Shown here one piece after another: positions 22,337 through 49,369 of a stretch of 49,507 bases of DNA. The number at the start of each line of letters is the position of its first letter. Position 1 is the stretch's first letter. Where the stretch lies: the NCBI GenBank assembly GCA_028293825.1, contig JAQGNY010000044.1, positions 1-49,507 on the forward strand, written 5' to 3'. The position numbers were made by a program, and so were the translations under genes. Under the pieces are notes generated by a model that made no database searches, was not told where the DNA came from, and saw only the letters and a list, made by a program, of their open reading frames with translations. This DNA is from Verrucomicrobiaceae bacterium. GTDB taxonomy: Bacteria; Pseudomonadota; Gammaproteobacteria; Pseudomonadales; CAMLJR01.

Positions 22337-26744
<4,408 letters not shown>

Positions 26745-32600: not shown

Positions 32601-32631
32601 CGTCGATACACGTTTTGATGTTCAAGTAAAA

Positions 32632-32662: not shown

Positions 32663-32674
32663 CCCTGACTTGTA

Positions 32675-33001
32675 TTAAAACTCTTGCTGTTCGGGAACGA
32701 CGACGGTGATGCCGTCCAGCGCATCGGTCATCTTGATCTGGCAACCGAGACGACTGTGCAGCAAGCGCTCTGCCGCCACTTCATCGAGCAGTGCGTCCTC
32801 GTCGAATGACGGATCGGGCAACTGCTTCACCCATTCATTGCCGACGTATACATGGCAGGTTCCGCAGTTACAGAAGCCGCCGCAGCGGCCGATGATTCCC
32901 GGGACGCTATTGCTCATCGCCACCTGCATAACGCTTTCGCCGACCTTGGCTTCCAGCGTGCGCGTCGAGCCATCGTTTAATTGATAAATAATTTTGGGCA
33001 T
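32675..33001 (-). CDS. [2Fe-2S] ferredoxin, adrenodoxin/putidaredoxin type
   Basis: A 108-residue ferredoxin. The cluster ligands are Cys40-x5-Cys46-x2-Cys49 and Cys87, the spacing of vertebrate-type/bacterial P450 ferredoxins, and the C-terminal VVVPEQQEF matches the group. An extra Cys44 lies inside the ligand loop. It is 40 bases downstream of the P450 on the same strand and is the obvious electron donor to it (class I P450 system). It could also feed the Rieske oxygenase at 46625-48627. No ferredoxin reductase is encoded in the window. Confidence 0.95.
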   Translation of the reverse strand: MPKIIYQLNDGSTRTLEAKVGESVMQVAMSNSVPGIIGRCGGFCNCGTCHVYVGNEWVKQLPDPSFDEDALLDEVAAERLLHSRLGCQIKMTDALDGITVVVPEQQEF

Positions 33002-33041
33002 GAATATTCGCCGCTTGCCGAATGAAGTGAAAGGCTGCGCT

Positions 33042-34286: not shown

Positions 34287-34313
34287 GGCGCTTTCCTCTT
34301 ATTTTTAAGATTT

Positions 34314-34326
34314 GACATTAGATGTC
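34314..34326. promoter_or_regulatory. Short palindrome upstream of the P450
   Basis: GACAT-TAG-ATGTC is a perfect 5-3-5 inverted repeat 28 bases before the P450 ATG. It contains TGACA and TGTC elements like the 28574/34530 motif but with different spacing, so it may be a different operator or chance. Confidence 0.35.
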
Positions 34327-34529
34327 GTTGAAATAGTCGATGTTCATTAAATGCTCGGCGCATGTTGAGCGGCAGGGCTTGCGCGCGCGTGTCGTTATAT
34401 ATTGAAGTGGTGCGCTACTTTCTGCCGCTACAGTCGGACAATCAATAGTCGAAAATCCGAATTCACCGAATCGATCGTCCAGATGTTTTTGCCTGTCACT
34501 TTTCGTTTCGCAGCTTTCACCGCCGAAAA

Positions 34530-34552
34530 ATAAATGATAGAGTGTCAGCTAT
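34530..34552. promoter_or_regulatory. Operator palindrome, copy 2 of a shared motif
   Basis: ATAAATGATA-N3-TGTCAGCTAT, both arms identical to 28574-28596, placed 28 bases before the ATG of the DUF35 gene that starts the 13-gene run. The close position to the start fits repression by blocking RNA polymerase. Confidence 0.72.
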
Positions 34553-34579
34553 TGTTGCTCAGGCAAAGTTGAAACAGCC

Positions 34580-34948
34580 ATGACCGCTCGCATACTTCCC
34601 GATCTCGATTACCAGACGTTCCTGAAAGAAGGGCGCTTTATGATCCAGCGCAGCGCGAGCAGCGGCAGTTACGTGTTTTATCCGCGCACAGTCGCACCGG
34701 GAACCGGCGCGGACGATTTGGAGTGGGTGCCGGCGAGCGGTCGCGGTGTGGTTTATTCCACCACCGTGGTGCGTGTAAAACCGCCCGCAGTTTCTTACAA
34801 CGTCGCATTGATTGAATTGGAAGAAGGCCCACGAATGATGTCGCGGGTTGAAACAATTGAGCCGGAGCAAGTCACTATCGGCATGCCGGTGCGCGCGCGC
34901 ATTGCGCAAGAAAACGATTTCGCCTTTTTAGTTTTCGACCCGGCGTAA
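34580..34948 (+). CDS. DUF35-type OB-fold protein lacking the zinc ribbon cysteines
   Basis: A 122-residue protein. The OB-fold half is clear: WVPASGRGVVYSTTVVRV, then VALIELEEGPRMMSRV and a closing PVRARI strand. DUF35 proteins normally begin with a rubredoxin-like zinc ribbon, RCxxCG...PR...CPxCG. The matching stretch is RSASSG...PRTVAPGTG, with Ser25 and Ser28 at the first knuckle, and there is no cysteine anywhere in the protein. DUF35 proteins pair with thiolase-like enzymes, for example with the steroid-pathway aldolase Ltp2. The likely partner here is the thiolase-like protein at 43671. First gene of the long plus-strand run. Confidence 0.85.
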   Translation: MTARILPDLDYQTFLKEGRFMIQRSASSGSYVFYPRTVAPGTGADDLEWVPASGRGVVYSTTVVRVKPPAVSYNVALIELEEGPRMMSRVETIEPEQVTIGMPVRARIAQENDFAFLVFDPA

Positions 34949-35034
34949 ATTCTCGGTTAAAAATTCCACGCATCGTCTTTAACTGCGCACAAAAATAATC
35001 AGCGCGATAAACGGTCCGTCAATGAGGTGCATCG

Positions 35035-35811
35035 ATGAATAACCCCATGTCGCTCGAAGGTCGAGTGATTATTGTCACTGGTGCAGGGCAGGGTATTGGT
35101 CTTGCCATCAGTAAATTGGTGATCGAATTAGGCGGCAGCGTCGCCGGCGTCGATATGAATGCCGACACGCTGGAAGCTGCAAAAGCATCTTTGCCGAGTG
35201 GAAAGTTTTTGCCGATTGTCGGCAGCGTTGCCGATCAAAGTATCGCGGACGACAGCGTGCAAAAAACAATTACCGCATTTGGTGCCGTGCACGGACTCGT
35301 CAATAACGCCGGTATCGGTCGACCCGCGATGATTGAAAAAATGACGCCGCAACAATGGCAGCTGGTCATGGATGTGCACGTCAACGGCTCGTTTTATTTC
35401 ACGCAGGCGGTGGGCAAGCATTTGCTCGAACGCGCGCGCGCCGGCGATAAAAATCCGGGCAGCATTGTTTACATTTCTTCCGATGCCGGGCGTCGCGGCA
35501 GTCTCGGTCAAATTAATTACGCATCGGCGAAAGCGGCGATGTTCGGCATGATGATGACGACTGCGCGCGAGTGGGCAAAATTCAATATTCGCGCGAATGC
35601 GGTGTGCTTCGGCGTCGTCGAAACCGCGATGACGGAAAAAGTGCGCAGCGATGAGCGTTTTGCCGAAAATTATCTCGCGCAAATTCCGCTCGGCCGCTGG
35701 GCCACGCCGGAAGAAGTGTCGATACCCGTGTGCTTTTTATTATCCGAAGGCGCGTCGTATATCACTGGGCAGGCGCTGTCCGTTAACGGCGGTTTCACGA
35801 TTGCAATGTAA
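35035..35811 (+). CDS. SDR family oxidoreductase
   Basis: A 258-residue classical SDR: VTGAGQGIG loop, VDMN after strand 2 (Asp, NAD preference), NNAG, YISSDAG with the catalytic Ser, YASAK with Tyr/Lys, and the C-terminal VNGG. GAGGTG lies 9 bases before the ATG. An unusual point is VCFGVVET where most SDRs have APG. It probably oxidises a hydroxyl of a CoA ester or ring in the pathway. It lies 23 bases ahead of the first acyl-CoA dehydrogenase pair. Confidence 0.92.
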   Translation: MNNPMSLEGRVIIVTGAGQGIGLAISKLVIELGGSVAGVDMNADTLEAAKASLPSGKFLPIVGSVADQSIADDSVQKTITAFGAVHGLVNNAGIGRPAMIEKMTPQQWQLVMDVHVNGSFYFTQAVGKHLLERARAGDKNPGSIVYISSDAGRRGSLGQINYASAKAAMFGMMMTTAREWAKFNIRANAVCFGVVETAMTEKVRSDERFAENYLAQIPLGRWATPEEVSIPVCFLLSEGASYITGQALSVNGGFTIAM

Positions 35812-35834
35812 GAGCACGACAGCGGAGCAATGCG

Positions 35835-36953
35835 GTGGATGATATTTCAACAATGTTACGTGATAGCGCGGCAGATTTTCTCGCCAGCCGCCACGATCTG
35901 GCGCGACTGAAAGGCGCCATCGGCGAGCCGCGCGCGCTCGATCGAAAATTGTGGCGTGAAATGGCGGAACTCGGCTGGCTCGGTCTTGGTTTGTCGCAGC
36001 AATTCGGTGGCGATGAAATCGGTTTGCGCGAAGTCACTGTGTTGTGTGAACAATTTGGTCGCACGGCATTTGCATTGCCGTATATCGAAGCGTCGTTAAT
36101 TCCCGCATTGATTTTGTCTGCAACAACACTCGCTGATTTAACTCAATCGCTTGCCGAAAAATTGCAAAGTGGAACCGCGTTGCTAACGTTGGCGTGGCAG
36201 GAACAAGTGGGCGAATTCGAAAATAAATTGCCAACTACACACTTCGATGGCGCGGCTATTAACGGTAAAAAATTATTCGTCGCGGCGGTCGAAGCCGATA
36301 GTGTTTTATTGGTGACAGCGCGTGCGCACGATGAATTAACGATTGTTGCTGTCGCGGCAAATGCACCCGGTGTGTCATGGCGCGATTTCGCGGCGGGACA
36401 GGGCACAGTCAGTACCGTATCGTTTGAGAATTCGCCAATTCTCGGCAGCGCGCCGTTGTTAACCGGCGTGGCCGCGCAACACGCATTACAACGCGCGCTC
36501 GATGCGGGTCGCATAGCGCTGTCGGCGCAATTGTCTGGGCTCGCCAGCGCAATGCTGGAGCGAACGATTAAATTCGTGAATGAGCGCGTGCAATTTGCGC
36601 GGCCAATCGGATCGTTTCAAACCATTCGCCATCGCTGTGTCGATTTGTATATTGCAACGCAATTGGCCGGCGCGACTTGGCGTGATGCGCTTGCGGTATT
36701 CGAAAAAAATAACGCGCAAGAAATTGCCATTGCCGCGAGCGCGGCCAAAGCGCGCTGCGCCGATACCGCTCAACGCGTCGCGCGCGAAGCGATTCAAATG
36801 CACGGTGCGATGGGGTTTACCGAAGAAGCCGATATCGGTTTATTCGCGCGCGCCAGCTTGCAAGGTTATGCCGCGCTTGGTTCGCCACTGCAGCATCGAC
36901 GTCGGTTTTTGCAAGGGCAAACCGTCGCAATGCAGGAGCTGGCGTATGGCTGA
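35835..36953 (+). CDS. Acyl-CoA dehydrogenase, pair 1, subunit with the C-terminal FAD motif
   Basis: A 372-residue ACAD. The N-terminal helical domain contains LGLSQQFGGDEIG, and the C-terminal domain has RPIGSFQTIRHRCVDL, which contributes to the FAD adenine site, and MHGAMGFTEEADI. The middle domain lacks the S-E-P-G-A-G-S-D signature that its partner carries. GTG start at 35835 with GGAG upstream (the nearby ATGs are out of frame). Its stop overlaps the start of the next ACAD by 8 bases. Such short/long pairs form alpha2-beta2 heterotetramers in steroid side-chain catabolism (FadE26-27, FadE28-29), where FAD sites lie between unlike subunits. A heteromer here is inference from motif division and coupling. 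Confidence 0.9.
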   Translation: MDDISTMLRDSAADFLASRHDLARLKGAIGEPRALDRKLWREMAELGWLGLGLSQQFGGDEIGLREVTVLCEQFGRTAFALPYIEASLIPALILSATTLADLTQSLAEKLQSGTALLTLAWQEQVGEFENKLPTTHFDGAAINGKKLFVAAVEADSVLLVTARAHDELTIVAVAANAPGVSWRDFAAGQGTVSTVSFENSPILGSAPLLTGVAAQHALQRALDAGRIALSAQLSGLASAMLERTIKFVNERVQFARPIGSFQTIRHRCVDLYIATQLAGATWRDALAVFEKNNAQEIAIAASAAKARCADTAQRVAREAIQMHGAMGFTEEADIGLFARASLQGYAALGSPLQHRRRFLQGQTVAMQELAYG

Positions 36954-38118
36954 AAAAATCGATTACGAAAAAATCAGCGACGATGAATTTCGTCTTAGGT
37001 TTAGAACGTGGCTCATAGCTAATTTTCCAGCGCATTTAAAACAAAATCATCATCGCCCGTTTCGGCGCCTGCGCGGTGACGATGCGGTGAACTGGCTTAA
37101 TCTACTCGATAAAAACGGTTGGCGCGCACCGGCGTGGCCGCGAGAATTCGGCGGCATGGGATTGAGTTTTCGCAAACAACTTATTTATCACGAAGAGTTG
37201 GAACACGCCGGCGTTGCGCGCGTGATCGATCTCGGTGAATCGCAACTCGGCCCGACTCTAATAAAATGTGGCAGCGCCGAGCAGCGCGCTGAATATTTAC
37301 CGAAAATTCTGTCGTGCGAGCATGTCTGGTGCCAGGGTTATTCCGAGCCCGGTGCCGGGTCCGATCTGGCCAGTTTGCGTACCAGCGCCGTTCGCGATAG
37401 AAATGATTTCGTCGTTAACGGCCAAAAGATATGGACGACGCAAGCGAACGATTCGACGCATATTTTCATGCTCGTACGCACCGGCCAATTTCCCAAAAAA
37501 CAATTGGGCATTAGCTTTTTGTTGATCGATTTAAAAACGCCGGGCATTACCATTCGCCCGATTGTGAATCTCGCCGGCGAAGATGAATTCTGCGAAGTTT
37601 TTTTCGACGACGTGCGTGTGCCAGCGAAAAATCTGGTTGGCGAGCTCGATCAAGGCTGGAGCGTAGCGAAAGCATTGCTCGGCTATGAGCGCGTCTGGAT
37701 CGGCAGTCCAGTGTTGGCCGGCAAAGCGCTCGCGCTGGCGAATACATTGGTGCGCGAATTAAACCTCACCGATGATCAAGGTGTAATGGATAGACTCGCG
37801 CAGCTGAGTGCCGATTTACACGATTACCGTTTGTTGTACGCAGAAATTTGCAATGGCATCGCCGATGGCGGCCAGCCGGGCGTGGAAGTATCGATGCTGA
37901 AACTGTATGCCTCGGAATTGTTGCAAGGCCTGACCGAATTCAATCAGGAAATCGCCGCTGAATACGGCGGCATTGTCGGCGATGTGGAAATCGGCGCGAC
38001 GCTGGTCGATTTACATTGGCAATTTATGATGGCGCGACCGGTAACGGTATTCGCCGGTGCGAATGAAATTCAGCGGGATATTTTGGCGAAGGCTGTGTTG
38101 CGGATGGCGGAGGATTAA
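36946..38118 (+). CDS. Acyl-CoA dehydrogenase, pair 1, subunit with the middle-domain motif
   Basis: A 390-residue ACAD. The middle domain shows GYSEPGAGSDLASLRT and NGQKIWTT, the flavin/substrate loops. LLGYERVWIGSP includes the Glu-Arg region where the catalytic base lies in related FadE subunits, and the end has TVFAGANEIQRDILA. It lacks the R-x-F/Q...FQ C-terminal FAD motif that the partner carries. The ATG at 36946 is chosen because an ATGGCTGA overlap couples it to the previous gene; the longer frame to 36580 is inside that gene. It desaturates a CoA thioester at alpha-beta. Its stop codon is the first part of a repeat element. Confidence 0.92.
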   Translation: MAEKIDYEKISDDEFRLRFRTWLIANFPAHLKQNHHRPFRRLRGDDAVNWLNLLDKNGWRAPAWPREFGGMGLSFRKQLIYHEELEHAGVARVIDLGESQLGPTLIKCGSAEQRAEYLPKILSCEHVWCQGYSEPGAGSDLASLRTSAVRDRNDFVVNGQKIWTTQANDSTHIFMLVRTGQFPKKQLGISFLLIDLKTPGITIRPIVNLAGEDEFCEVFFDDVRVPAKNLVGELDQGWSVAKALLGYERVWIGSPVLAGKALALANTLVRELNLTDDQGVMDRLAQLSADLHDYRLLYAEICNGIADGGQPGVEVSMLKLYASELLQGLTEFNQEIAAEYGGIVGDVEIGATLVDLHWQFMMARPVTVFAGANEIQRDILAKAVLRMAED

Positions 38119-38287: not shown

Positions 38288-39517
38288 ATGTTTAAACCAG
38301 GCGCTCTTGCCGGTATTCGCGTACTCGATATGACACGCGTAATTGCGGGTCCTTACGCCGGGCAGATTTTTGGCGATCTCGGTGCCGAGGTTATAAAAAT
38401 CGAACGACAGGGCGAGGGCGACGATGTGCGCCGTGTTGGCCCGCCGTGGATGAAAGATGCCGATGGCAACGACACTAAAGAATCGACTTATTTCCACGCG
38501 GTCAATCGCAATAAACAATCGGTGACGATCGATTACGCCCAGCCCGAAGGCGCGCAGTTATTGCGCGAACTCGCGACAAAAGCCGATGTACTGATTGAAA
38601 ATTATCGGCCGCGCACATTGGAAAAATACGGCCTCGGCTACGAGGATTTAAAAGCGATTAATCCGCGATTGATTTATTGCTCGCTGAGCGGCTTCGGGCA
38701 AACGGGCCCCTACGCCGAGCGTTCCGGTTACGACTATTTGGTACAGGCAATGGCCGGTTTGATGTCGGTAACAGGCTTGCCAGTTGGAGAACCCGGCGCA
38801 GGGCCGTTGCGCGTGGGAATTCCCATTGCCGATATTTTTGCCGGACTTTACAGCGTGATCGGTGTACTCGCTGCAATTAATCACCGCAACAATACTGGCA
38901 TCGGCCAGTACATCGATGTGTCGTTATTCGAATCGCAATTGGCGGGCATGCTCAATACATTTTCGGCGTGGTTTAACGCCGGCGCTGAATTGGGACGTAC
39001 CGGCAACGATCATCCGAGCGCATCGCCGTACGGTGTTTATCCCGTCGACGATGGTTATATTTTGATTGCGACATTTAACGATCGCGAATTTGTGCGCCTC
39101 GCCAAAGCGTTGGGTCATGCGGAATGGAGTAGCGATGAACGCTTCGCCACCAATGGTGCGCGTGTTGGCAATCGGCCATTGTTAAAACAATTGGTGACCG
39201 ATGCGCTACGCGGGAAAACCATGCACGAGTGGGTCGAATTATTAAATAAGGCGACGGTGTCGTGCGGTCCGTTGAACACGATGCAGGATATCGCCACAGA
39301 TCCGCACGTGCAGGCGCGCGAATTAATCGTGCAGATGCAACATGAAATAACTGGCCCAGTGAAAGTAACGGCCAGCCCGATTCGACTTTCGGAAACGCCG
39401 GTGAGTTATCGTCTGCCGCCGCCGCAAATCGGCGAGCACACTAGCGTTGTGTTGCAAAATTGGTTGCAGCTCGATTCAAAACAAATCGACGCGCTGCGCG
39501 CAAAAAATGTGATCTGA
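38288..39517 (+). CDS. Class III CoA-transferase (CaiB/BaiF family)
   Basis: A 409-residue enzyme moving CoA between carboxylic acids. The N-terminal motif is LAGIRVLDMTRVIAGPYAGQ, then IKIERQGEGDD and VLIENYRPRTLEKYGL. The catalytic Asp is Asp149 in SGYDYLVQAMAG (equivalent to Asp169 of formyl-CoA transferase). AAGAGG is upstream of the ATG. It would activate the acid substrate, or an acid produced by the alcohol/aldehyde dehydrogenases, to its CoA ester for the downstream dehydrogenases. It begins the sub-module CoA-transferase/ACAD/ACAD, which is bounded on each side by a different repeat element. Confidence 0.95.
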   Translation: MFKPGALAGIRVLDMTRVIAGPYAGQIFGDLGAEVIKIERQGEGDDVRRVGPPWMKDADGNDTKESTYFHAVNRNKQSVTIDYAQPEGAQLLRELATKADVLIENYRPRTLEKYGLGYEDLKAINPRLIYCSLSGFGQTGPYAERSGYDYLVQAMAGLMSVTGLPVGEPGAGPLRVGIPIADIFAGLYSVIGVLAAINHRNNTGIGQYIDVSLFESQLAGMLNTFSAWFNAGAELGRTGNDHPSASPYGVYPVDDGYILIATFNDREFVRLAKALGHAEWSSDERFATNGARVGNRPLLKQLVTDALRGKTMHEWVELLNKATVSCGPLNTMQDIATDPHVQARELIVQMQHEITGPVKVTASPIRLSETPVSYRLPPPQIGEHTSVVLQNWLQLDSKQIDALRAKNVI

Positions 39518-39523
39518 GGTTTT

Positions 39524-40720
39524 ATGTCGCTGCCCTTTCGTTATCCGCCATTTTCAATTCCCACTGAGTTCGACGCGCTGCGCCGCGAGGTGCGTGAATT
39601 TTTAAATGAAGCGGCAAAAAACTGGTCCGGTTGGGATTTGGGTCATTCGTGGATGGCATTCAATCGCGAATTTAGCCGCGAAGTCGGACGACGCGGTTGG
39701 ATCGGCATCACCTGGCCGAAACAATATGGCGGTCACGAGCGCACCGCGCTTGAGCGCTACGTGGTGGTTGAAGAAATGCTCGCAATCGGTGCGCCGGTCG
39801 GCGCGCATTGGGTCGGCGACAGGCAAAGCGGTCCGCTGTTATTGCGCATCGGCAGCGAAGCGCAGAAGCAGCGTTTCTTGCCGGGTATTGCTGCAGGTGA
39901 ATTGGCTTTTTGTATCGGTTTATCCGAGCCCGGTGCCGGGTCCGATTTGGCGTCGATTCGCTCGCGCGCTGAACGCGTCGCTGGCGGCTGGCAATTAAAC
40001 GGTCGCAAAGTGTGGACGACGTACGCGCAGCACAGCGATTTTATGATTGGTTTATTTCGCTCGCACGGCTCTCCCCCTCTTGATGTAAATAAAGGGACGG
40101 ACAAACATAAAGGCCTATCGCAATTTTTAATCGATTTAAAAACGCCCGGTATTGAAGTGCGCCCGATTCGCGATTTAACCGGAGAAGCGCATTTCAACGA
40201 AATTACTTTCGACGATGTATTCGTGCCGGATGATTTATTGCTCGGCCAGGAAGGCGAAGGCTGGGCGCAAGCAAATGCGGAGCTTGCGTTCGAGCGCAGC
40301 GGCCCGGATCGCTATTTGAGCTCCTTTCCGTTATTGGCGCCAACGATAGATGCAGTGCGCGCGGACGAACGAAGCGATCTGCCTGCTACAAATGACCGAT
40401 TAACGGCGCGGCGAATCGGCGAAGCGGTGGCCGATATCGTCACGTTGCGTGAAATGTCGTTATCTATTCTCGGTCGTCTTGCCGATGGTGAAACACCGGC
40501 GCAGGAAGCGGCGTTGACCAAAGATCTTGGCACCACGTTCGAGCAGCGATTGCCGGAAATGGTTCGCGAAATTCGCGAGCAACTGCCGGTGCGCGACGAC
40601 TCGCAAGCGCTGTCGGCGATGCATGTATTCCTCACCGAAACGACGCCGACATTTTCATTGCGCGGCGGCACGCGTGAAATTATGCGCGGCATTATTGCGC
40701 GGGGGCTGGGCTTGCGATGA
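39524..40720 (+). CDS. Acyl-CoA dehydrogenase, pair 2, subunit with the middle-domain motif
   Basis: A 398-residue ACAD. The N-terminal part reads RRGWIGITWPKQYGG. The middle domain shows GLSEPGAGSDLASIRS and NGRKVWTTYAQHSD, and AFERSGPDR includes the likely catalytic-base region. The end has RGGTREIMRGIIARGLG. No RxQFG..I..FQ motif is seen, so the FAD site is probably completed by the partner at 40717, whose ATG overlaps this stop as ATGA. GAGG precedes the ATG, 6 bases after the CoA-transferase stop. It is a diverged paralogue of the 36946 protein, probably acting on a different chain length or position. Confidence 0.92.
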   Translation: MSLPFRYPPFSIPTEFDALRREVREFLNEAAKNWSGWDLGHSWMAFNREFSREVGRRGWIGITWPKQYGGHERTALERYVVVEEMLAIGAPVGAHWVGDRQSGPLLLRIGSEAQKQRFLPGIAAGELAFCIGLSEPGAGSDLASIRSRAERVAGGWQLNGRKVWTTYAQHSDFMIGLFRSHGSPPLDVNKGTDKHKGLSQFLIDLKTPGIEVRPIRDLTGEAHFNEITFDDVFVPDDLLLGQEGEGWAQANAELAFERSGPDRYLSSFPLLAPTIDAVRADERSDLPATNDRLTARRIGEAVADIVTLREMSLSILGRLADGETPAQEAALTKDLGTTFEQRLPEMVREIREQLPVRDDSQALSAMHVFLTETTPTFSLRGGTREIMRGIIARGLGLR

Positions 40721-41775
40721 ATGCGATTAATACGGAAATGGAAGTCGGAGAATTGCTTGCGGAGCAGCTCGCACGCTTATTTAGCGAACGCGTGACGCAT
40801 CAAGCGCTGACTCGCGTCGAGCAGGGCGCATTCGATCAAGTACTTTGGGGCGATATCGAACAGCTTGGTGTAGTAGGCGCTCTAACACCGGAGCTTGCTG
40901 GTGGCGCCGGTTTAAATTGGACGCAATGCGCGGCGATATTTCAAACGCTGGGCGAACACGCGGCGCCAATTCCGTTGGCCGAAGCAATGCTGGCGACATG
41001 GGCGCTTGGCCGCGCCGGAATTGAAGCGGATACGACGCGACTTACCGTAAGTAGCGCAATTTTCGAAATCGATACGAACGGGAAATTGCACGGCGCCGAC
41101 TCATTATTGCCGTGGGCGGCGCATGCACAAAGCGTGGTCGCGATTGCAAAAGCCGGCGACGATTATCGACTCTGTTTATTTTTAATCGCCGATGCAGAAA
41201 TTAATTCGTTGCAAACGATTGCGCGCTTGCCGAGTTCGCAATTAATCGCGCGTGGTGTTACGCCGCAAATTAATGTTCCAGCTCCGAATATCTTTGGTCC
41301 GTTAGGCTTGCAACCGGCCTTAGCTACCGCGCGTGCGACGGCATTGGCCGGCACATTAGCGCGTATGCTCGAATTAACTATCGAGTATGCGAACACCCGC
41401 AGCCAGTTCGGAAAAACCATCGGCCGCTTTCAAGCGATTCAACATCTGATTGCGGAGTTCGCCGAATTGACCGCCGCCGCACAAGTCGCCGCAGCATTTG
41501 CGTGTCGGCAATTCGATCGTGGTGTTGATGCTTCGGAACGCGGCGCCGCGGTCGCAAAAATTCGCGCCGGTCAATCGGCGACGCGTGCGGCCATGATCGC
41601 GCATCAAGTATTCGGCGCGATTGGTTTTACCGACGAACATATTCTGCATTTTTATTCGCGCCGGTTGTGGCAGTGGCGCAGCGAAGCCGGCAGCGAGCAT
41701 TGGTGGGCCGAATGGCTCGGCCAGCAAACATTGGCGGCGGGTGGCGATGCGTTATGGAGCGGAATTACCGGCTGA
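40717..41775 (+). CDS. Acyl-CoA dehydrogenase, pair 2, subunit with the C-terminal FAD motif
   Basis: A 352-residue ACAD, shorter than single-gene ACADs (about 380-400). The N-terminal domain is reduced. The C-terminal domain has NTRSQFGKTIGRFQAIQHL, the classic flavin-adenine-contacting motif, and VFGAIGFTDEHILHFYSRRLW. The middle domain lacks S-E-P-G-A-G-S-D. It is complementary to the preceding ACAD and translationally coupled to it (ATGA). The arrangement parallels alpha2-beta2 ACADs of steroid side-chain degradation. Heteromer formation is inference. Confidence 0.9.
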   Translation: MNAINTEMEVGELLAEQLARLFSERVTHQALTRVEQGAFDQVLWGDIEQLGVVGALTPELAGGAGLNWTQCAAIFQTLGEHAAPIPLAEAMLATWALGRAGIEADTTRLTVSSAIFEIDTNGKLHGADSLLPWAAHAQSVVAIAKAGDDYRLCLFLIADAEINSLQTIARLPSSQLIARGVTPQINVPAPNIFGPLGLQPALATARATALAGTLARMLELTIEYANTRSQFGKTIGRFQAIQHLIAEFAELTAAAQVAAAFACRQFDRGVDASERGAAVAKIRAGQSATRAAMIAHQVFGAIGFTDEHILHFYSRRLWQWRSEAGSEHWWAEWLGQQTLAAGGDALWSGITG

Positions 41776-41787
41776 AATGAATTCATT

Positions 41788-41867
41788 TTGTAGGGGCGCT
41801 GCTTGTCGCACCCTTGTACGAATCAGCGTGCGATATTGATTGGATGCAGCAAGCGGCACTCCTACAA
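41788..41867. repeat. REP-like inverted repeat element
   Basis: TTGTAGGGGCGCTGCTTG at 41788-41805 and CAAGCGGCACTCCTACAA at 41850-41867 are inverted copies matching at 15 of 18 positions, with an inner TCGCAC/GTGCGA pair (41806-41811 and 41828-41833). The TTGTAGG...CCTACAA ends resemble REP/BIME sequences of pseudomonads and relatives. It marks the right edge of the CoA-transferase/ACAD sub-module and lies outside the neighbouring CDSs once the next SDR start is placed at 41898. Confidence 0.8.
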
Positions 41868-41897
41868 ATAAACAAGATAATAATCGGAGGCGAAGTG

Positions 41898-42770
41898 GTG
41901 AATCAGAATTTAAAAAATGTTGTCGCGGTAATTACCGGCAGCAGTCGCGGCGTCGGTCGCGGCATAGCGGTAGCGTTAGGCCGACACGGCGCGACGGTGT
42001 ATGTAACAGGGCGTAGTGCGAAGGCTGGTGATTCGCCGTTTCCCGGTACCGTATTCGAAGCCGCTGAAGAAGTGACGGCGGCAGGTGGAGTTGGCATTCC
42101 GGTAGTATGCGATTTCAGCGATGACGCGCAAATAAAAAAATTATTCCAGCAGGTCGAGCGCGAACAAGGCAAGTTACATATTCTCGTCAACAACGCATCG
42201 GTAATTCCGCCGGAGTTGTATTCACCCGGTCCATTCTGGACCAAATCGATTGATATCGTAGCGTTGCTTGATGTCGGTTTGCGTTCCTCCTATATCGCCA
42301 GTTATTACGCAGCACCGTTGCTGGTGCGCGGTGGGCGCGGCGTTGTCGTCAACACGTCGACTTACGGCGCTTCCTCTTATATTCACGGCCCGGTTTACGG
42401 CGCGCAAAAAGCGGGACACGACAAACTCGCCACCGATATGGCAATTGATTTTCGCGAGCACAATGTTGCGGCAGTTTCGTATTGGTTTGGCGCAGTGGCC
42501 ACCGAGCGCCATGAAATGGCTGTGGCTAATTTGCCGCCCGGTGAAGGTTACGGCGGCGTATTTAAGGTGATCGAAGGCCGCGAATTCGGTGGCCATGTAC
42601 TTGCCGCAATGTACAACGATTCGGCGCTTATGCAGCGTTCCGGTCAGGTTATTATCGTGGCGGAGCTGGCGCAGGAATACGGCATTAAAGATGTTGGCGA
42701 TGTCGAACCGCCCAGCTATCGCGGCGTGCTTGGTTTTCCGCATGTACAACATCCGTCGATTATTGTGTGA
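41898..42770 (+). CDS. SDR family protein (DHRS1-like)
   Basis: A 290-residue SDR longer than the classical size. ITGSSRGVGRGIAVALGRHGATVYVTGRS is the nucleotide-binding part (strand-2 end GRS suggests NADP), then VCDFSDD, VNNAS, NTSTYG, and YGAQK with Tyr and Lys. The C-terminal 60 residues lack the usual DGG. Pattern and length recall the DHRS1-like group. The start is one of two consecutive GTG codons (41895/41898) after GGAGG. The longer ATG at 41814 would translate through the REP-like repeat and is rejected. Unknown substrate; probably a ring or side-chain ketone/alcohol. Confidence 0.87.
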   Translation: MNQNLKNVVAVITGSSRGVGRGIAVALGRHGATVYVTGRSAKAGDSPFPGTVFEAAEEVTAAGGVGIPVVCDFSDDAQIKKLFQQVEREQGKLHILVNNASVIPPELYSPGPFWTKSIDIVALLDVGLRSSYIASYYAAPLLVRGGRGVVVNTSTYGASSYIHGPVYGAQKAGHDKLATDMAIDFREHNVAAVSYWFGAVATERHEMAVANLPPGEGYGGVFKVIEGREFGGHVLAAMYNDSALMQRSGQVIIVAELAQEYGIKDVGDVEPPSYRGVLGFPHVQHPSIIV

Positions 42771-42817
42771 ATAAATAATTTCCGCTGTAAGAAAAATAAT
42801 TATCTGGAGTGAGATGC

Positions 42818-43636
42818 ATGAATCGATTTACAGGAAAGGTTGCGATTGTTACCGGCGGTGCGTCCGGCATTGGCGCAGCAGTGTGTCGGCGCATCGTTGC
42901 CGAGGGCGGCAAAGTTGCAGTGGCGGATTTAAACGGCGAACGCGCCGCAGCACTGGCGAAAGAAATCGGCAGCGCGGCGCTGGCCGTGCAATTCGATGCA
43001 GCCGAAGAAGAATCGATTCGCAATTTGGTTGCAACCACCGTCAAACATTTCGGTAGCCTGCATGTGCTGCACAACAACGCGGCGGATATTTCGGCGGCAA
43101 TTCAAGTCGGCGATACCAATGCCGTCGATATCGACATGGCCGTTTGGGACCGCGTAATGAATGTGAATTTGCGCGGCTATTTGGTCGGCTGCAAATACGC
43201 GATTCCGCATATCGCCGCAGCGGGTGGCGGCAGCATTGTGAATACGGCGTCGGGTGCCGGTTTGCAGGGCGATCTTGTGCGCATCGCGTACGGCACATCG
43301 AAAGGCGCAATCATGTCGTTGACGCGTTATGTCGCCACGCAACATGCGCATCAAAATATTCGTTGTAACGCCGTCGCACCCGGTTTGGTTATTACGCCGG
43401 CATTGAAAGATGGCGATCCGGGTTTGATCGGAATTTTAAAACGCCACACGCTGCTCGAATTTGCCCAGCCCGAAGAAATTGCATCGATGGTGGCGTATCT
43501 CGCGTCGGACGAATCGCGCTATGTGACCGGACAGGTATTGACCATCGATGGTGGTCTCAGCATTCACAATCCGATGATTGCCGATCTGCAGGATTACATG
43601 ACGCAAGCTGGCGCGGCGGCGCAACAAAACAAATAA
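42818..43636 (+). CDS. SDR family oxidoreductase, paralogue of the SDR at 4400
   Basis: A 272-residue classical SDR: TGGASGIG, VADLN (Asp, NAD), HNNAA, TASGAG with Ser, YGTSK, and IDGG. The ATG at 42818 lies 8 bases after GGAGTG; the GTG at 42809 overlaps that ribosome site. Extended similarity to the 4400-5209 protein, including the acidic insertion TNAVDIDMAVWDRVMNVN (the other has TTAVDIPFATWNAVMNVN) and a C-terminal extension, indicates a duplicated gene. It likely oxidises a hydroxyacyl or ring hydroxyl. Confidence 0.92.
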   Translation: MNRFTGKVAIVTGGASGIGAAVCRRIVAEGGKVAVADLNGERAAALAKEIGSAALAVQFDAAEEESIRNLVATTVKHFGSLHVLHNNAADISAAIQVGDTNAVDIDMAVWDRVMNVNLRGYLVGCKYAIPHIAAAGGGSIVNTASGAGLQGDLVRIAYGTSKGAIMSLTRYVATQHAHQNIRCNAVAPGLVITPALKDGDPGLIGILKRHTLLEFAQPEEIASMVAYLASDESRYVTGQVLTIDGGLSIHNPMIADLQDYMTQAGAAAQQNK

Positions 43637-43670
43637 GCTGAAATTGATAAATTATTAAAGAGCGTAAGTA

Positions 43671-44828
43671 ATGGAAAAATTTCCGCGTGGTCGCGCTGCA
43701 ATTATCGGCGCAGCCACTTACGGCATGGGCGAATGTCCGCATCATCGTCCGCTCGATATGGCGGCGAAGGCGGCAACGCTGGCGCTCGCCGATGCGAATT
43801 TGGAACTCGGTGCGGTCGATGCGTTATTTGTGTGTTTGCCGGACGACGCGTTGGCGGGAATGGCGGCGGCGGAATATCTCGGCATTAAACCGCGTTACAC
43901 CGATTGCAATCGCACCGGCGGCTCCGCGTTTTTATCGCACGCGATTGTCGCGTCGTTGATGCTCGATGCCGGATATATCGACACCGCATTGATTATGTAC
44001 GGCAGCAATCAGCGCACTGGCGCCGGTGGTTTGGTCACGCTGCGGCAATCGTCGCTGTATGAAAAACCGTACAAGCCGATGAACCCATTGTCGTCGTACG
44101 CGCTCGCTACCGCGCGTCATATGTACGAATACGGCACCACACGCGAACAACTCGCCGCTGTGGCTGTTGCAGCGCGGCAGTGGGCGAATTTAAACCCCGA
44201 CGCATTTATGTACGGCAAGGGTGAACTGACGATTGAAGAATGTATTAACGCACGCATGGTGTCCGATCCATTATCGGTGCGCGATTGCTGTTTGATTACC
44301 GACGGTGCCGCAGCGGTGGTATTGACGCGCGCCGACCGCGCAAAAACGCTGCGTAAAAATCCGATTTATATTCTCGGCGCAGCGGCGGCAATCGAGCATG
44401 CGAACATCGATCAGATGAGCGATTTAACCACGACGCCTGCGGTTGAATCGGGGCGTCGTGCATTTGCAATTGCCGGCGTTATACCGAGCGATATCGATGT
44501 GGTCGAGTTGTACGATGCATTCACCATCAACACTATTTTATTTCTCGAAGATTTAGGTTTCTGTCCGAAGGGCGAGGGCGGTCGCTTCGTGCAGGACGGT
44601 CGCATCTCACCCGGCGGCGAATTGCCGGTGAATACCAATGGTGGCGGCTTGTCGTGTTGCCATCCCGGTATGTACGGTTTATTCACGATGGTGGAAGCCT
44701 GTGTGCAATTACGCGGCGAAGGTGGCGCACGCCAAATTAAAAATGCCGAATTGGCATTGGCGCACGCGAATGGCGGCGTGCTGTCGAGTGAAGCCACGAT
44801 GATTCTCGGTACCGCAGCAACGCTTTAA
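43671..44828 (+). CDS. Thiolase-like protein without nucleophilic Cys (possible Ltp2-type aldolase)
   Basis: A 385-residue thiolase-superfamily protein of the lipid-transfer/SCP-x branch. Where true thiolases carry C-G-S-G, it has RTGGSAF (Gly83-Gly84), so the Cys nucleophile is missing. GHP is changed to CCHPGMYG (His331). Tyr281 (ELYDAF) and Tyr335 (GMYG) are in regions where, from memory, the steroid-pathway aldolase Ltp2 has catalytic tyrosines. Ltp2-type enzymes need a DUF35 partner, and a DUF35 gene heads this run at 34580. A retro-aldol cleavage of a beta-hydroxyacyl-CoA is therefore more likely than thiolysis. This is inference; a classical thiolase is at 29462. Confidence 0.87.
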   Translation: MEKFPRGRAAIIGAATYGMGECPHHRPLDMAAKAATLALADANLELGAVDALFVCLPDDALAGMAAAEYLGIKPRYTDCNRTGGSAFLSHAIVASLMLDAGYIDTALIMYGSNQRTGAGGLVTLRQSSLYEKPYKPMNPLSSYALATARHMYEYGTTREQLAAVAVAARQWANLNPDAFMYGKGELTIEECINARMVSDPLSVRDCCLITDGAAAVVLTRADRAKTLRKNPIYILGAAAAIEHANIDQMSDLTTTPAVESGRRAFAIAGVIPSDIDVVELYDAFTINTILFLEDLGFCPKGEGGRFVQDGRISPGGELPVNTNGGGLSCCHPGMYGLFTMVEACVQLRGEGGARQIKNAELALAHANGGVLSSEATMILGTAATL

Positions 44829-44898
44829 AAGTTTATTTTCATTTTCATTTTTCATTTTTTAAAAAGTATTTTCTTTTAATTATTTCAGGCAGGCATTT

Positions 44899-45693
44899 AT
44901 GGACTTCTCGCATTACGAATTTTTTCTGGTCGAACGCGACGGTAAAGTGTTGACGATTACACTGAACAGCCCCGACAAACTCAATGCGTTCAGCGAACGT
45001 GGCCATCGCGAACTATCGCGTATTTTTGTTGACGCCGCCGAAGATGAGGAGACAGAAGTTATCGTCGTTACCGGCGCCGGTCGTGCATTTACTGCCGGCG
45101 GCGATCTGCAATACATGCAGAAATTGCGCGACGAACCGGCACTGATGCATCGCACTGTGCGCGAAGCGAAGCGCATTGTGTTTTCGCTGCTCGACTGCGA
45201 TAAGCCAATCATTTGCAAAGTGAACGGCGATGCAATTGGGCTCGGTACCACGCTGGCGTTGTTTTGCGATGTGGTATTCGCAGTAGAAACCGCTAAGTTT
45301 GCTGATCCGCATAATAATGTTGCGTTGATTGCAGGTGATGGCGGCGCGATTATGTGGCCGCAATTAATCGGCTATGCGCGCGCGAAACATTATTTATTTA
45401 CCGGCGAAGCGTTGACGGCGAAAGATGCACAGGCGATGGGTTTGATTCACGCGGCAGTGCCGAAAGAAGAACTGGACGCGCAAGTAGATGCCTATGTGAA
45501 TCGTTTGTTGCGCATGCCGATCCAATCGATTCGGTGGAGCAAACAGACGATGAATATTCCGCTGAAGCAACTCGCGCACAGCATGATGGATGCAGGAATG
45601 GCGTACGAAGCAGTGGCCGGGCAAACGGACGATCATGGCGAGGCGATTGCAGCTTTCCGTGAAAAGCGCAAACCGCAATTCACCGGCCAATAA
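44899..45693 (+). CDS. Enoyl-CoA hydratase/isomerase family protein with altered catalytic residues
   Basis: A 264-residue crotonase. Typical features: NSPDKLNAF near 24-31, GAGRAFTAGGDL (oxyanion hole/CoA loop), GDAIGLGTT, AKFADPHNN, and the C-terminal FREKRKPQF. The two catalytic glutamates of enoyl-CoA hydratase (Glu144 and Glu164 in rat) align with Thr118 and His138, so ordinary hydration is doubtful. Asp147 (AGDGG) lies in the pocket region. It may be an isomerase, hydrolase or ring-opening enzyme. A T-rich stretch of 70 bases (44829-44898) precedes it, and AGGCAGG lies before the ATG. Confidence 0.9.
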   Translation: MDFSHYEFFLVERDGKVLTITLNSPDKLNAFSERGHRELSRIFVDAAEDEETEVIVVTGAGRAFTAGGDLQYMQKLRDEPALMHRTVREAKRIVFSLLDCDKPIICKVNGDAIGLGTTLALFCDVVFAVETAKFADPHNNVALIAGDGGAIMWPQLIGYARAKHYLFTGEALTAKDAQAMGLIHAAVPKEELDAQVDAYVNRLLRMPIQSIRWSKQTMNIPLKQLAHSMMDAGMAYEAVAGQTDDHGEAIAAFREKRKPQFTGQ

Positions 45694-45745
45694 CTATCGA
45701 TGTGTCGAATTAATTCGACGTTTGAAAAACACGCAGGAAATAATG

Positions 45746-46546
45746 ATGACTGCACAAACTGATAATGCACCGGTACTGCTCGATATTAGCGAAGGCATCG
45801 CCACGATTCGCTTTAATCGCCCCGACTCGTTAAATGCGGTCGATGTTGAGATGGCGTGTTTGTTCCGCGATCTTGTCGCGCAGGTGGTAGCGAATTCCGC
45901 CGTGCGTGTAATTGTATTGGCGGGTAACGGTCGCGCCTTTGTCGCGGGCGGCGATCTCGGTTATTTTCGTTCAGCTGGTGAAAATGCACCGCAAGCGGCA
46001 CGCGAATTAATCGCGCCGATGCACGCGGCTGTGGAATTGTTGATCAATGCACCGCAGCCGGTTATCGGTAGTTTGCACGGCGCTGTGGCCGGCGCCGGAA
46101 TGAGCCTGGCGGCGGCGGTCGATTTGGCCATAGCGGCGGACAACGCGATATTTAATCTCGCCTATATAAAAATCGGCAATTCACCGGATTGTGGTGCCTC
46201 GTGGACTTTACCGCGCGTGCTCGGACTGCGCAAAGCGATGGAAATCGCGTTGCTGGCCGAGGCTATCGATGCCAACGAAGCGCATCGCATCGGCTTGGTA
46301 AATCGCGTCGTGCCACTCGATAAATTGGCCGAAGAAACGGCGAAAATTGCAAGCAAGTTGGCTAAATCCGCTCCAGCGGGAATTGCTTCGACCAAACGTT
46401 TATTGAACGCGGGATTTCAAAATTCGCTGCACCAGCAGCTCGGCCACGAAGCGGATTCGTTTGCTAGCAACGCCGGTACGCATGATTTTCGCGAAGCGCT
46501 CGATGCATTTTTCGAAAAACGTAAACCGGAGTTCCAAGGCCGCTAA
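45746..46546 (+). CDS. Enoyl-CoA hydratase/isomerase family protein (PaaG-like)
   Basis: A 266-residue crotonase. FNRPDSLNAV, GNGRAFVAGGDL, GAVAGAGMSLA, IKIGNSPDCGASWTLPRVLG and FFEKRKPEFQGR are family marks. The Glu144/Glu164 positions are not Glu. Asp148 in SPDCG aligns with the catalytic Asp of PaaG-type 2,3/3,4-isomerases (PDxGG). A double-bond or epoxide isomerase of a CoA thioester is therefore more likely than a hydratase. Two adjacent ATGs (45743, 45746) follow AGGA; the second has the better spacing. The longer frame to 45590 overlaps the previous gene and is rejected. Confidence 0.92.
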   Translation: MTAQTDNAPVLLDISEGIATIRFNRPDSLNAVDVEMACLFRDLVAQVVANSAVRVIVLAGNGRAFVAGGDLGYFRSAGENAPQAARELIAPMHAAVELLINAPQPVIGSLHGAVAGAGMSLAAAVDLAIAADNAIFNLAYIKIGNSPDCGASWTLPRVLGLRKAMEIALLAEAIDANEAHRIGLVNRVVPLDKLAEETAKIASKLAKSAPAGIASTKRLLNAGFQNSLHQQLGHEADSFASNAGTHDFREALDAFFEKRKPEFQGR

Positions 46547-46624: not shown

Positions 46625-47584
46625 GTGAGCATCCAATCAAGTCAATGGTGGGCCGTCGCGCTCGCCGCAGAAGTGACCGCCGCAAAGCCGAAAGGCGTGT
46701 CCGTCGATAACGAGCCGATCGTGCTGTTTCGCGATCAATCCGGCGCGATACGAGCGCTGGAAGATCGCTGCCCGCATCGACGCATGCCGTTGTCGCTGGG
46801 TCGGGTGCGCGAGGACGGCCTGCTGCAATGCGGCTATCACGGCTGGTCCTTCGATGGGGTAACGGGGCAGTGCAAAGCGATTCCCAATCTGCTCGTCGGT
46901 GAAAAAGTCCCATCCACCTATGGCGTGTTTCCCTACCGCGCCATCGAACAAAACGATTTTATCTACGTCGCCGCCGGCACCGCGCTGCAGGCGTTGCCGC
47001 CGAATTTATATGCATCGCCCAAAAAGATTTTCAGCGGCCGTCACACGGTCGGCTTAGCGCACGCGGAATTTATCGCCGCGTTAATGGACGGCCCGCAATT
47101 GCTATTGGATTGTGCCGGTATTCGCATTTCCGACACGCTGATTGCCGACCCGCATTTGGAAGACGGTTGGTTGGTGATGGAGCGCGCCGCATTCTGGCTC
47201 GGGCAAACGCAATTCGATGGTTTTGTGCGCGAATACAAATTGATTTTTAGATTGGCGATCAATCCCGAAACGGCCGAATCGTGGCTTAGTTTTACGCATC
47301 CCGATAGCAGCGTTGTCGCAGTGGCCCATTTAGCAATCACGCCTTCGACGCGTGGCACCACTGCTATTTTGTGGCGTTCGTTTGCATCGACTGCAGCGGG
47401 TGTAAGATCGACGCTGTTGCGTAGCGCAGCGGCACTCGGCCGCGCCCCGATCACAGTGCGCGCACATATCGACATGGGCGCCGTCGCCCGTTTATTAGTA
47501 GGTCCGTCTGAGCATTGGCAACGCGATAATCGAGAGCCAGGTTTGTACGGCACTATCTTGACCAAAGAGAGGGCAAGACTATGA
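46625..47584 (+). CDS. Rieske-type oxygenase homologue keeping the [2Fe-2S] site but lacking the catalytic-iron site
   Basis: A 319-residue protein. The N-terminal Rieske domain is intact: Cys49-x-His51 (RCPHRRMPLSLG) and Cys69-x2-His72 (QCGYHGWSFDG), 17 residues apart. Where Rieske oxygenase alpha subunits bear the mononuclear-iron motif N-x2-D-x2-H-x4-H, this protein has LMDGPQLLLDC (153-163), with Gln158 and Cys163 where the two His would be. It aligns with LMDLTHSDFLH in the next gene, so the catalytic site is vestigial. GTG start after GGGAGG. Its stop overlaps the ATG of the next gene (ATGA). Proposed role: electron-transfer subunit of a heteromeric oxygenase. The substrate is unknown. 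Confidence 0.9.
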   Translation: MSIQSSQWWAVALAAEVTAAKPKGVSVDNEPIVLFRDQSGAIRALEDRCPHRRMPLSLGRVREDGLLQCGYHGWSFDGVTGQCKAIPNLLVGEKVPSTYGVFPYRAIEQNDFIYVAAGTALQALPPNLYASPKKIFSGRHTVGLAHAEFIAALMDGPQLLLDCAGIRISDTLIADPHLEDGWLVMERAAFWLGQTQFDGFVREYKLIFRLAINPETAESWLSFTHPDSSVVAVAHLAITPSTRGTTAILWRSFASTAAGVRSTLLRSAAALGRAPITVRAHIDMGAVARLLVGPSEHWQRDNREPGLYGTILTKERARL

Positions 47585-48627
47585 ACGCAACCCAACCCCG
47601 AGATAACGATTCGATAGTAAGCAATGGTCGTCGCCCGATGCGCGACTGGGTGCCAGGGCGCATGCCGATGCGCGATGCCTGGATTCCCATCGGTCATTCG
47701 ATTCACATCACCGATCAAATCACCTGGCGACCGCTGCATTCGCTGCGTTATTTTTTATGGCGTGAACAGGGCGTGTTAAAAGCGGCGGAATTTCACCCGT
47801 CCGAATTAGCGCAAAAAAGTGCGCAGGTGAGCGCATTTACCAAGAATGGTTTTTATCCAATCATCGAACGTTACGGCATGATCTGGGTGTGGTACGGCAA
47901 TCCCGCCAACGCGCGCGAATCGTTGCTGCCGAATTTGCCGCACATGCCGCTCGACGGAAATCTGCCCGGCTATATGCGCGGTCAAACGCGGTTGCATAGC
48001 TGTGCTGAACTGGCGATGGAAAACCTGATGGATTTAACCCACTCGGATTTTCTTCATGCCGATTTGCTCGGCGATTCGATCAGCGACGAAGATGTGGTCA
48101 CCGTCGATTCGACGTCCGAAACAATCACCATGGTGCGCACCTGCCGCAATAAAGTCGCTGCACCGATAATGCAAAAAGCGGCGGGCATTAAAGCCAAAAC
48201 ACAGAACGTACGCTTCACCATCCATATTTATATTCGCAGTCACGTCGCTGCTATCTACAGTAAATTTGAACCGGGCCTCGAAGTTAAATTACTGCACTGC
48301 AGCACACCAGAAACGCGTAACAGCAATACCGTCAACTTTATTCAAAACACTACCGACGCGCGCCCACCGTATCGTTACATATTTCCGCTGGCCTCCTACA
48401 AAATCGGCCCGCAGGATGATTTCGCACTGCGCCCGCAAGGCCCGCGTTATTTTCAGGAAATCGAACGCCGTGATTTGCATTCGCGATTTGACGTAGCCTC
48501 TGCGCGCTATCGCTTTTTAGTCGAACAAATTTTAGAGCGCCAAAGCCGCGGCGATTATTCGTATGAATCCGACGAAATTATCAGTGGCGATAAAAGCGAA
48601 GTGCTGGGAATAGGGCGTCCGGTTTGA
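47581..48627 (+). CDS. Rieske oxygenase catalytic-domain homologue lacking the Rieske cluster ligands
   Basis: A 348-residue protein. The mononuclear-iron motif is complete: E147-N148-L-M-D151-L-T-H154-S-D-F-L-H159. The N-terminal third still looks like a Rieske-domain relic (AWIPIGHS, LRYFLWREQGVL, IWVWYGNP at the domain end) but contains no Cys before residue 141 and no CPH/CxxH pair, so it cannot bind the cluster. The third iron ligand, an acidic residue, is expected near the C-terminus (IERRDLHSRFD region) but cannot be fixed by eye. Coupled by ATGA overlap to the Rieske-bearing gene. Proposed to be the oxygen-activating subunit receiving electrons from that partner. Confidence 0.9.
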   Translation: MNATQPRDNDSIVSNGRRPMRDWVPGRMPMRDAWIPIGHSIHITDQITWRPLHSLRYFLWREQGVLKAAEFHPSELAQKSAQVSAFTKNGFYPIIERYGMIWVWYGNPANARESLLPNLPHMPLDGNLPGYMRGQTRLHSCAELAMENLMDLTHSDFLHADLLGDSISDEDVVTVDSTSETITMVRTCRNKVAAPIMQKAAGIKAKTQNVRFTIHIYIRSHVAAIYSKFEPGLEVKLLHCSTPETRNSNTVNFIQNTTDARPPYRYIFPLASYKIGPQDDFALRPQGPRYFQEIERRDLHSRFDVASARYRFLVEQILERQSRGDYSYESDEIISGDKSEVLGIGRPV

Positions 48628-48862: not shown

Positions 48863-49369
48863 TTGTCCGATCCATTTCGGATGAGAGCGTTGTATGCCGT
48901 GCAATCTCTCAATTTGCCCGATTGGCTTATAGGTGCTGGATTTGTCAGGAATTTGATATGGGGCAGCGTCTTTAATAAAAATATTGATATCAACGATATT
49001 GATGTCATTTATTTCTGCCGAGACGATGTTTCAAAAGAGCGAGACATTTTTCTAGAAAAGCGCCTTCGCGAATTAGAACCAAACTTTTCATGGTCAGTTA
49101 AAAATCAAGCCAGAATGCATCTTAAGCATGGCGATGCGCCCTATGACAGTACGTTAGATGCAATGCGGTTCTGGCCGGAGAAACAAACCAGTATCGGTGT
49201 CTGTCTAAATAACAACGGCGCTATTTTGGTTCAGCATTGTTTCGATTTAAGTCTGCAGTTCAGCGGCAATATCAATCGCAATCCAGCGCGCTCAGTCGAA
49301 ATTTTTGAAGACAGAGTTTCAAGTAAGGGCTGGCTTAATATATGGCCATCCTTGCAGGTCGTTATTTAG
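48863..49369 (+). CDS. Nucleotidyltransferase-like protein, possibly with a damaged start
   Basis: About 168 residues. The pattern LPDWLIGAGFVRNLIWG, then NDIDVIYF (acidic pair of a nucleotidyltransferase fold), and the C-terminal KGWLNIWPSLQVVI match the COG3575-type nucleotidyltransferase family; function unknown. The TTG at 48863 is used. In the same frame, ATG-GGC-TAG occurs at 48830-48838, followed by 8 coding-looking codons (EQRIIDLI) leading into the ORF, so a nonsense mutation at codon 3 of a longer gene is possible. Codon use is more A/T-rich than in the run before it, hinting at a different origin. It is unrelated to the catabolic run by function. Confidence 0.72.
   Translation: MSDPFRMRALYAVQSLNLPDWLIGAGFVRNLIWGSVFNKNIDINDIDVIYFCRDDVSKERDIFLEKRLRELEPNFSWSVKNQARMHLKHGDAPYDSTLDAMRFWPEKQTSIGVCLNNNGAILVQHCFDLSLQFSGNINRNPARSVEIFEDRVSSKGWLNIWPSLQVVI

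Follow-up and report, generated by a model that had tools for sequence, protein, structure and literature searches.

The subject of this study is a pair of adjacent genes near the end of a 49,507-nucleotide stretch of bacterial DNA, the whole of which is referred to here as the window (contig JAQGNY010000044.1 of assembly GCA_028293825.1, deposited as a Verrucomicrobiaceae bacterium and placed by GTDB in the Pseudomonadales). An earlier note, made from the letters of the sequence alone, had read the two genes as a Rieske oxygenase whose metal sites are shared out between two chains. Both open reading frames (ORFs) were found where that note had placed them, on the forward strand. Gene 1 (46625-47584) encodes a protein of 319 amino acids that is annotated here as a Rieske-bearing subunit with a dead catalytic domain, and gene 2 (47581-48627) encodes a protein of 348 amino acids that is annotated as an iron-bearing catalytic subunit without a Rieske cluster. 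The stop codon of gene 1 and the start codon of gene 2 overlap in the tetranucleotide ATGA (47581-47584), which was confirmed in the sequence. The domain content of the pair follows the same division. Gene 1 matches the Pfam Rieske family with 82.6 bits (cut-off 20.3) and has no match to any oxygenase catalytic-domain family in Pfam, and gene 2 matches VanA_C with 107.5 bits (cut-off 23.5) and has no match to any Pfam Rieske family.

Reciprocal loss of the metal sites

In ordinary Rieske oxygenases both metal sites are present on each alpha chain (PMC12445004). The residues of the two sites were examined in family alignments of 23 rows each, which were drawn from 40 gene 2 and 39 gene 1 ORFs after near-identical copies, the cut copy L076, and L040 and L041 were dropped. 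In gene 1 the ligands of the [2Fe-2S] cluster, C49, H51, C69 and H72 (46769-46840), are invariant (23/23 rows). The iron motif of gene 1 has decayed to LMDGPQLLLDC (47081-47113), and positions 158 and 163, at which the iron histidines have been lost, are variable, with His in 2/23 and 0/23 rows, respectively. Despite the loss of the iron site, D155 (codon 47087-47089), which occupies the position of the bridging Asp, is retained in 22/23 rows. Gene 2 presents the opposite picture. Its iron motif ENLMDLTHSDFLH (48019-48057) includes N148, the bridging D151, H154 and H159, and these four residues together with E147 and D279 are invariant in all 23 rows. Because of this invariance D279 (48415-48417), which had not been named in the earlier note, is taken to be the probable third iron ligand. 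A CxH motif in the N-terminal region of gene 2 was found in none of the 23 rows, and the first 140 residues of the window's gene 2 contain no Cys. The residues that the earlier note had called in both genes are thus correct.

When the features that define a Rieske oxygenase alpha subunit are looked for chain by chain, CxH...CxxH is found on gene 1 and is missing from gene 2, the 2-His-1-carboxylate iron site is found on gene 2 and is missing from gene 1, and only the pair has both. A motif test of the ORFs, the copies in the window's own genome included, gave the same division throughout: gene 1 is Rieske-plus and iron-minus in 39/39 and gene 2 is iron-plus and Rieske-minus in 40/40, in sets that include near-identical copies from related species. 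Homologues in which gene 1 has kept the iron site or gene 2 the Rieske site, which the earlier note had named as evidence that would count against its proposal, do not occur among these ORFs. Additionally, three further pairs located on plasmids of Novosphingobium, Croceicoccus and Massilia show the same reciprocal loss; these are the three that were examined among the four plasmid records covering 80% of gene 2.

Strict pairing and shared history

The earlier note had called for a search of genomes for co-conserved adjacent pairs with the same motif loss, and this search was carried out. The window's own genome encodes three such pairs, of which the other two are 32-41% identical to that of the window. 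A scan of one genome per species across 84,980 species with two short patterns from gene 2 matched 107 stretches, of which at least 37 were confirmed as gene 2 relatives and the other 70 were left out. In 36 of these 37 the gene immediately upstream, in the same orientation, is gene 1, and the pair shows the reciprocal loss; the remaining relative (L076) begins at a contig end. The carriers include Pseudomonas, Massilia, Polaromonas, several marine gammaproteobacteria, sphingomonads and one Streptomyces.

Profiles of the two families separate them from ordinary oxygenases by a broad margin in 33 carrier genomes. The gene 2 profile found 43 copies with at least 438 bits (next match 70), and the gene 1 profile found 42 copies with at least 218 bits (next match 126). 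A 65-bit gene 2 match in the last 49 positions of a contig, which is probably the tail of a cut copy, was not counted. Gene 1 stands beside 42 of the 43 gene 2 copies, the exception being the copy at the contig end, and none of the 42 gene 1 copies in these genomes, which were chosen as gene 2 carriers, is solitary. Because the set had been chosen in this way, an order-wide search of 341 genomes was added. In the window's order both genes occur in the same three genomes, the window's own included, with five copies each, and no unpaired gene 1 (0/5) was found. In a phylum sample of 398 genomes, which was searched with the gene 2 profile only, gene 2 was detected only in the window's own genome. 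In the order and phylum searches, scoring was confined to the top 5 or 6 candidates of each genome, at E values of 1e-40 or 1e-45. The family is rare and patchy in these genome samples.

The history of the two genes was examined with trees built from 15 of the 23 alignment rows and two own-genome rows per family, together with 20 of 21 ordinary oxygenases after one truncated row was dropped. In a quick search each family formed one clade with a Shimodaira-Hasegawa-like approximate likelihood ratio test (SH-aLRT) support of 100. Three subgroups are common to both trees: the window with L042, L043 and L044 (support of 99 for gene 2 and 98 for gene 1), L069, L072 and L075 with the own-genome copy on contig C20 (98 and 91), and L074 with the own-genome copy on contig C55 (84 and 82). 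The distance matrices of gene 1 and gene 2 are correlated with a coefficient of 0.89, a value that was matched by 0/2000 permutations. These congruent clades and correlated distances demonstrate that the pair has moved as one unit and that the two genes have been inherited together.

The earlier note had also proposed that each subunit lost one redundant site after a duplication. The reciprocal loss is borne out by the alignments. The duplication is compatible with the tree but not demanded by it: a constraint joining the two families as sisters among the ordinary oxygenases came at no cost (approximately unbiased test, p-AU 0.502). The stems of both families are long (1.9 and 1.45 changes per column), and a sister placement may be the result of long-branch attraction. 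A profile-profile comparison aligned 144 columns of the two families with a probability of 97%, which indicates homology and not sister status.

Selection was examined in eight Pseudomonas sequences as the ratio of nonsynonymous to synonymous substitution rates (dN/dS), with 27/28 pairs per domain after a filter on dS. The median dN/dS in gene 1 is 0.074 for the Rieske domain and 0.150 for the dead catalytic domain, and the corresponding values in gene 2 are 0.082 for the N domain and 0.026 for the catalytic domain. The dead halves of both chains are under purifying selection, with the weakest constraint on the dead catalytic domain in gene 1. The mean pairwise identity among gene 1 proteins is 32% in the C domain and 50% in the Rieske domain.

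Several observations on individual carriers concern the arrangement and spread of the pair. In L063 and L071 (3978-5990) the TGA stop of gene 1 is followed by the ATG of gene 2 in frame (the sequence was read for L063), and with stops read through the frame extends for 674 amino acids with a single TGA in both genomes; occasional readthrough would yield a fused oxygenase. Pseudomonas fluorescens PS662 has two copies of the pair on separate contigs (L057 and L058), both of which score 581.2 and 441.1 bits with the two profiles, which suggests a recent duplication or transfer. Just downstream of the Colwellia pair lies an ORF (L066:6205-7230) that we take to resemble an IS110-type transposase, and its position beside the pair fits a patchy spread. 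In the window's own genome the pair on contig C55 (L040:8202-12654) is followed by a 465-amino acid ORF with a Rieske motif and a 188-amino acid ORF, which together are probably an ordinary alpha/beta oxygenase.

Predicted folds and proposed electron transfer between chains

Structures of both chains were predicted with AlphaFold 2 (AF2) and compared with known proteins. The model of gene 1 has a mean predicted local distance difference test (pLDDT) score of 88.4 and a predicted template modelling (pTM) score of 0.84, and consists of a Rieske domain followed by a catalytic-type domain. The top match in VIA-align is dicamba monooxygenase (3gte; Z 22.9, root-mean-square deviation (rmsd) 3.9, 282 aligned residues), a lead that amounts to a tie as other Rieske oxygenases are less than one Z unit behind, and in Foldseek GxtA and SxtT come out on top. 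The model of gene 2 (pLDDT 82.4, pTM 0.84) also has dicamba monooxygenase as its top VIA-align match (3gke; Z 26.8, rmsd 2.9, 283 aligned residues). Both models match Rieske oxygenase alpha subunits, with their two-domain fold, across most of their length. According to the model and the profile alignment, gene 2 retains a rump of the Rieske domain (47668-47904) in which the base strands are kept and the cluster-binding subdomain is missing: 24 residues lie between the strands at 65-69 and 94-97, where the model of gene 1 has 56 residues, carrying the cluster loops, between the strands at 42-46 and 103-109. On the basis of these matches the models indicate that neither chain is a ferredoxin or a fragment, and that both are oxygenase subunits, each with a single disabled site.

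Taken together, the two genes are probably halves of a single Rieske non-heme iron oxygenase, in which electrons would pass from the gene 1 cluster to the gene 2 iron. In known Rieske oxygenases cluster and iron are ~12 A apart when they belong to neighboring subunits and ~45 A apart when they are on the same chain, and the two histidine ligands are bridged across the subunits by a conserved Asp (PMC12445004). For the direction from gene 1 as donor to gene 2 as acceptor, the transfer-path ligands and the bridging Asp are invariant, and each of the other three directions lacks at least one end. Since only this direction is complete, the two chains would be obligate partners in a heteromer, with gene 1 passing electrons to gene 2. 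The [2Fe-2S] cluster would be the sole contribution of gene 1, and gene 2 would contribute just the mononuclear iron together with the active site. Both chains would fold as two-domain alpha subunits, gene 2 minus the cluster-binding subdomain, and would associate head to tail like neighboring subunits of an ordinary Rieske oxygenase trimer. The cluster of gene 1 would thereby lie ~12 A away from the gene 2 iron, and the two would be linked through H72 on gene 1 and the bridging D151 on gene 2. Gene 1 would receive its electrons from a ferredoxin or reductase, gene 2 would bind the substrate and O2, and the product would probably be a hydroxylated or dealkylated intermediate in a degradation pathway of coenzyme A (CoA) esters. 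From sequence we infer that such a complex forms, which way its electrons travel, what reduces it and what reaction it performs. The obligate heteromer of the earlier note, with electron transfer in trans, is in this way supported indirectly, by the reciprocal loss, the oxygenase folds, the strict pairing and the congruent trees; the duplication and the single functional electron path per heterodimer that the note also proposed are no more than possible.

Several points weigh against this reading. The dN/dS of the dead domain of gene 1 is twice that of its Rieske domain, and the constraint on it may be merely structural. In gene 2 the pLDDT falls below 50 at residues 153-165, a segment that includes H154 and H159, so the iron site is unconfirmed by the model, and the Foldseek TM-scores of both models are just ~0.6. 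Pairing and congruent trees would also be expected for a co-inherited pair that touches only transiently, and neither of the genes flanking the pair is a reductase in Pfam. The symmetry of known enzymes is a further difficulty. The structurally characterized Rieske oxygenases are consistently C3-symmetric oligomers (PMC12445004). A three-membered ring of two kinds of chain holds at most one contact from gene 1 to gene 2; therefore, a 1:1 pair with one path each cannot be the usual trimer, and the known trimeric assembly is not transferable unchanged to the gene pair. We consider it possible, if somewhat doubtful, that the pair has left C3 symmetry. It would then form a heterodimer, a ring with an even number of chains or a trimer of heterodimers, each pair would have exactly one electron path, and the dead halves would have been recruited for regulation or donor docking. 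Of the two possible heterocontacts just one would be expected to be productive because gene 2 has lost the cluster-binding subdomain and gene 1 is without the iron site.

The transient contact just mentioned leads to the alternative that fares best, in which gene 1 is a dedicated electron carrier that docks transiently on a homotrimer of gene 2, in the manner of a Rieske ferredoxin or of the additional Rieske domain in NdmD. There is a precedent in NdmC, which has no Rieske cluster and for which the additional cluster of NdmD is postulated to stand in (PMC4408171), and the C domain of gene 1 is the fastest evolving within the pair. However, the model of gene 1 retains the two-domain oxygenase fold and not that of a ferredoxin, purifying selection acts on the dead domain of gene 1, and gene 1 without gene 2 was seen neither among the 42 copies of the carrier genomes nor among the five of the order sample. 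We regard a dedicated carrier as unlikely. A second alternative is that the two genes act separately, with gene 2 fed by another ferredoxin and gene 1 serving another role. Two of the three own-genome pairs have Fer2 ferredoxin genes at a distance of up to 14 kb, which makes another donor conceivable, but the adjacency and co-occurrence of the two genes across genomes and their complementary metal sites render separate action very improbable. A sequencing error or ordinary decay of one or both genes, which might be suspected because each is without one site that defines the superfamily, is ruled out by the conservation of the pattern in 39/39 gene 1 and 40/40 gene 2 ORFs, the purifying selection in all four domains, and the three intact pairs within one genome.

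Known systems and genomic context

One of the systems that come closest to the pair is the chlorophyllide a oxygenase of Micromonas pusilla (MpCAO). In a 2013 study by Kunugi, one MpCAO chain was reportedly found to carry the Rieske motif and the other the iron motif, both chains being required. MpCAO consists of two polypeptide chains and is active with VanB; a heterodimer had earlier been proposed, and it has been suggested that the enzyme is perhaps a trimer of dimers (PMC9615114). The structures of the Arabidopsis and Micromonas CAOs have been predicted, and in an AlphaFold 3 (AF3) trimer of the Arabidopsis enzyme the cluster lies 12 A from the neighboring iron (PMC13297055). No mention of a two-chain CAO was found in a passage search of PMC8003979. 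MpCAO resembles the gene pair in being a Rieske oxygenase in two chains, but it is a pigment enzyme of a eukaryotic alga, whereas the pair is bacterial, adjacent, sometimes overlapping, and located among catabolic genes in the window. A motif split over two chains does not by itself make the pair a CAO.

The NdmC/NdmD system had been cited in the earlier note as a precedent for a Rieske center supplied in trans. The caffeine N7-demethylase NdmC/NdmD/NdmE does contain an iron subunit without its own Rieske cluster that is served in trans (PMC4408171), and to this extent the comparison is sound. It is a looser one in that the Rieske domain is fused there to a reductase, whereas that of gene 1 is on an oxygenase-like chain, and in that a third, glutathione S-transferase (GST)-like protein, NdmE, is needed. 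None of the 13 Rieske matches in the window's own genome coincides with any of the 4 Fer2 matches, as a Rieske-reductase fusion would. No match to the GST family was found in Pfam among the 8 genes at 38288-46546, nor among 10 more genes (8 at 28669-38118, one at 48863 and one at 25482).

Dicamba monooxygenase, an alpha3 homotrimer, has the highest VIA-align Z for both chains but differs in that each of its chains carries both metal sites, as is stated for alpha subunits in general (PMC12445004). The best NCBIfam match of both genes is the 4beta-methylsterol monooxygenase SdmA (NF052579), with 66.5 bits for gene 1 and 30.3 bits for gene 2; membership was rejected, as the scores are far under the curated cut-off of 600 bits.

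The earlier note knew of no described system with this exact reciprocal architecture in overlapping genes, and it had missed the two-chain MpCAO as a precedent. No bacterial oxygenase that is split likewise was found in searches of an open-access library, subscription papers and preprints being outside its scope, so an earlier description is possible. A bacterial pair of side-by-side subunits with the oxygenase fold is matched by neither MpCAO nor NdmCDE. In ordinary enzymes the donor and the acceptor cannot be varied independently because both sites share a chain. With the sites on separate chains each can be altered, titrated or labeled alone, so the path between subunits, half-site chemistry and the function of the bridging Asp would be open to direct test with the pair, and the assembly of a two-chain Rieske oxygenase becomes testable in bacteria. 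In three annotated plasmid records gene 1 is labeled as a 'Rieske (2Fe-2S) protein' or domain-containing protein and gene 2 as an 'oxygenase' or 'subunit alpha'. Since the two genes are labeled separately, expression of one gene alone could give a false negative.

Upstream of the pair, on the same strand, lies a set of catabolic genes (38288-46546) that encode, as judged from ORFs and Pfam, a CoA-transferase III, two acyl-CoA dehydrogenases, two short-chain dehydrogenases/reductases (SDRs), a thiolase and two enoyl-CoA hydratases. Strand and spacing suggest that these genes and the pair form one operon. Candidates for the electron supply are found ~12 kb upstream of the pair on the reverse strand (32675-34286), where a 2Fe-2S ferredoxin with a Fer2 match (32675-33001) is located next to a cytochrome P450 (33042-34286; Pfam p450); the ferredoxin may be linked to the gene pair. 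The pair is followed by an NTP_transf_6 nucleotidyltransferase (48863-49369), which is probably unrelated.

The neighboring genes make it likely that the pair oxygenates a CoA-linked or acid substrate in a catabolic pathway. The best NCBIfam model for the SDR at 42809 is a 7alpha-hydroxysteroid dehydrogenase (243.5 bits) and that for the acyl-CoA dehydrogenase at 40717 is IpdE2 (79.5 bits). As both scores fall below the cut-off of 450, a steroid pathway for the window's cluster is only a hint. The clusters at other carriers include a P450 with an AMP ligase, an LLM monooxygenase with F420 genes, and a 745-amino acid CoA-transferase III protein. Because the neighbors differ among carriers, the split architecture probably serves several substrates. 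On two sphingomonad plasmids (L079 and L080) the pair stands beside LLM flavin and F420-dependent oxidoreductases and F420 genes, which are unusual among sphingomonads; cofC is present on both plasmids, and cofH and npdG lie in the L079 stretch.

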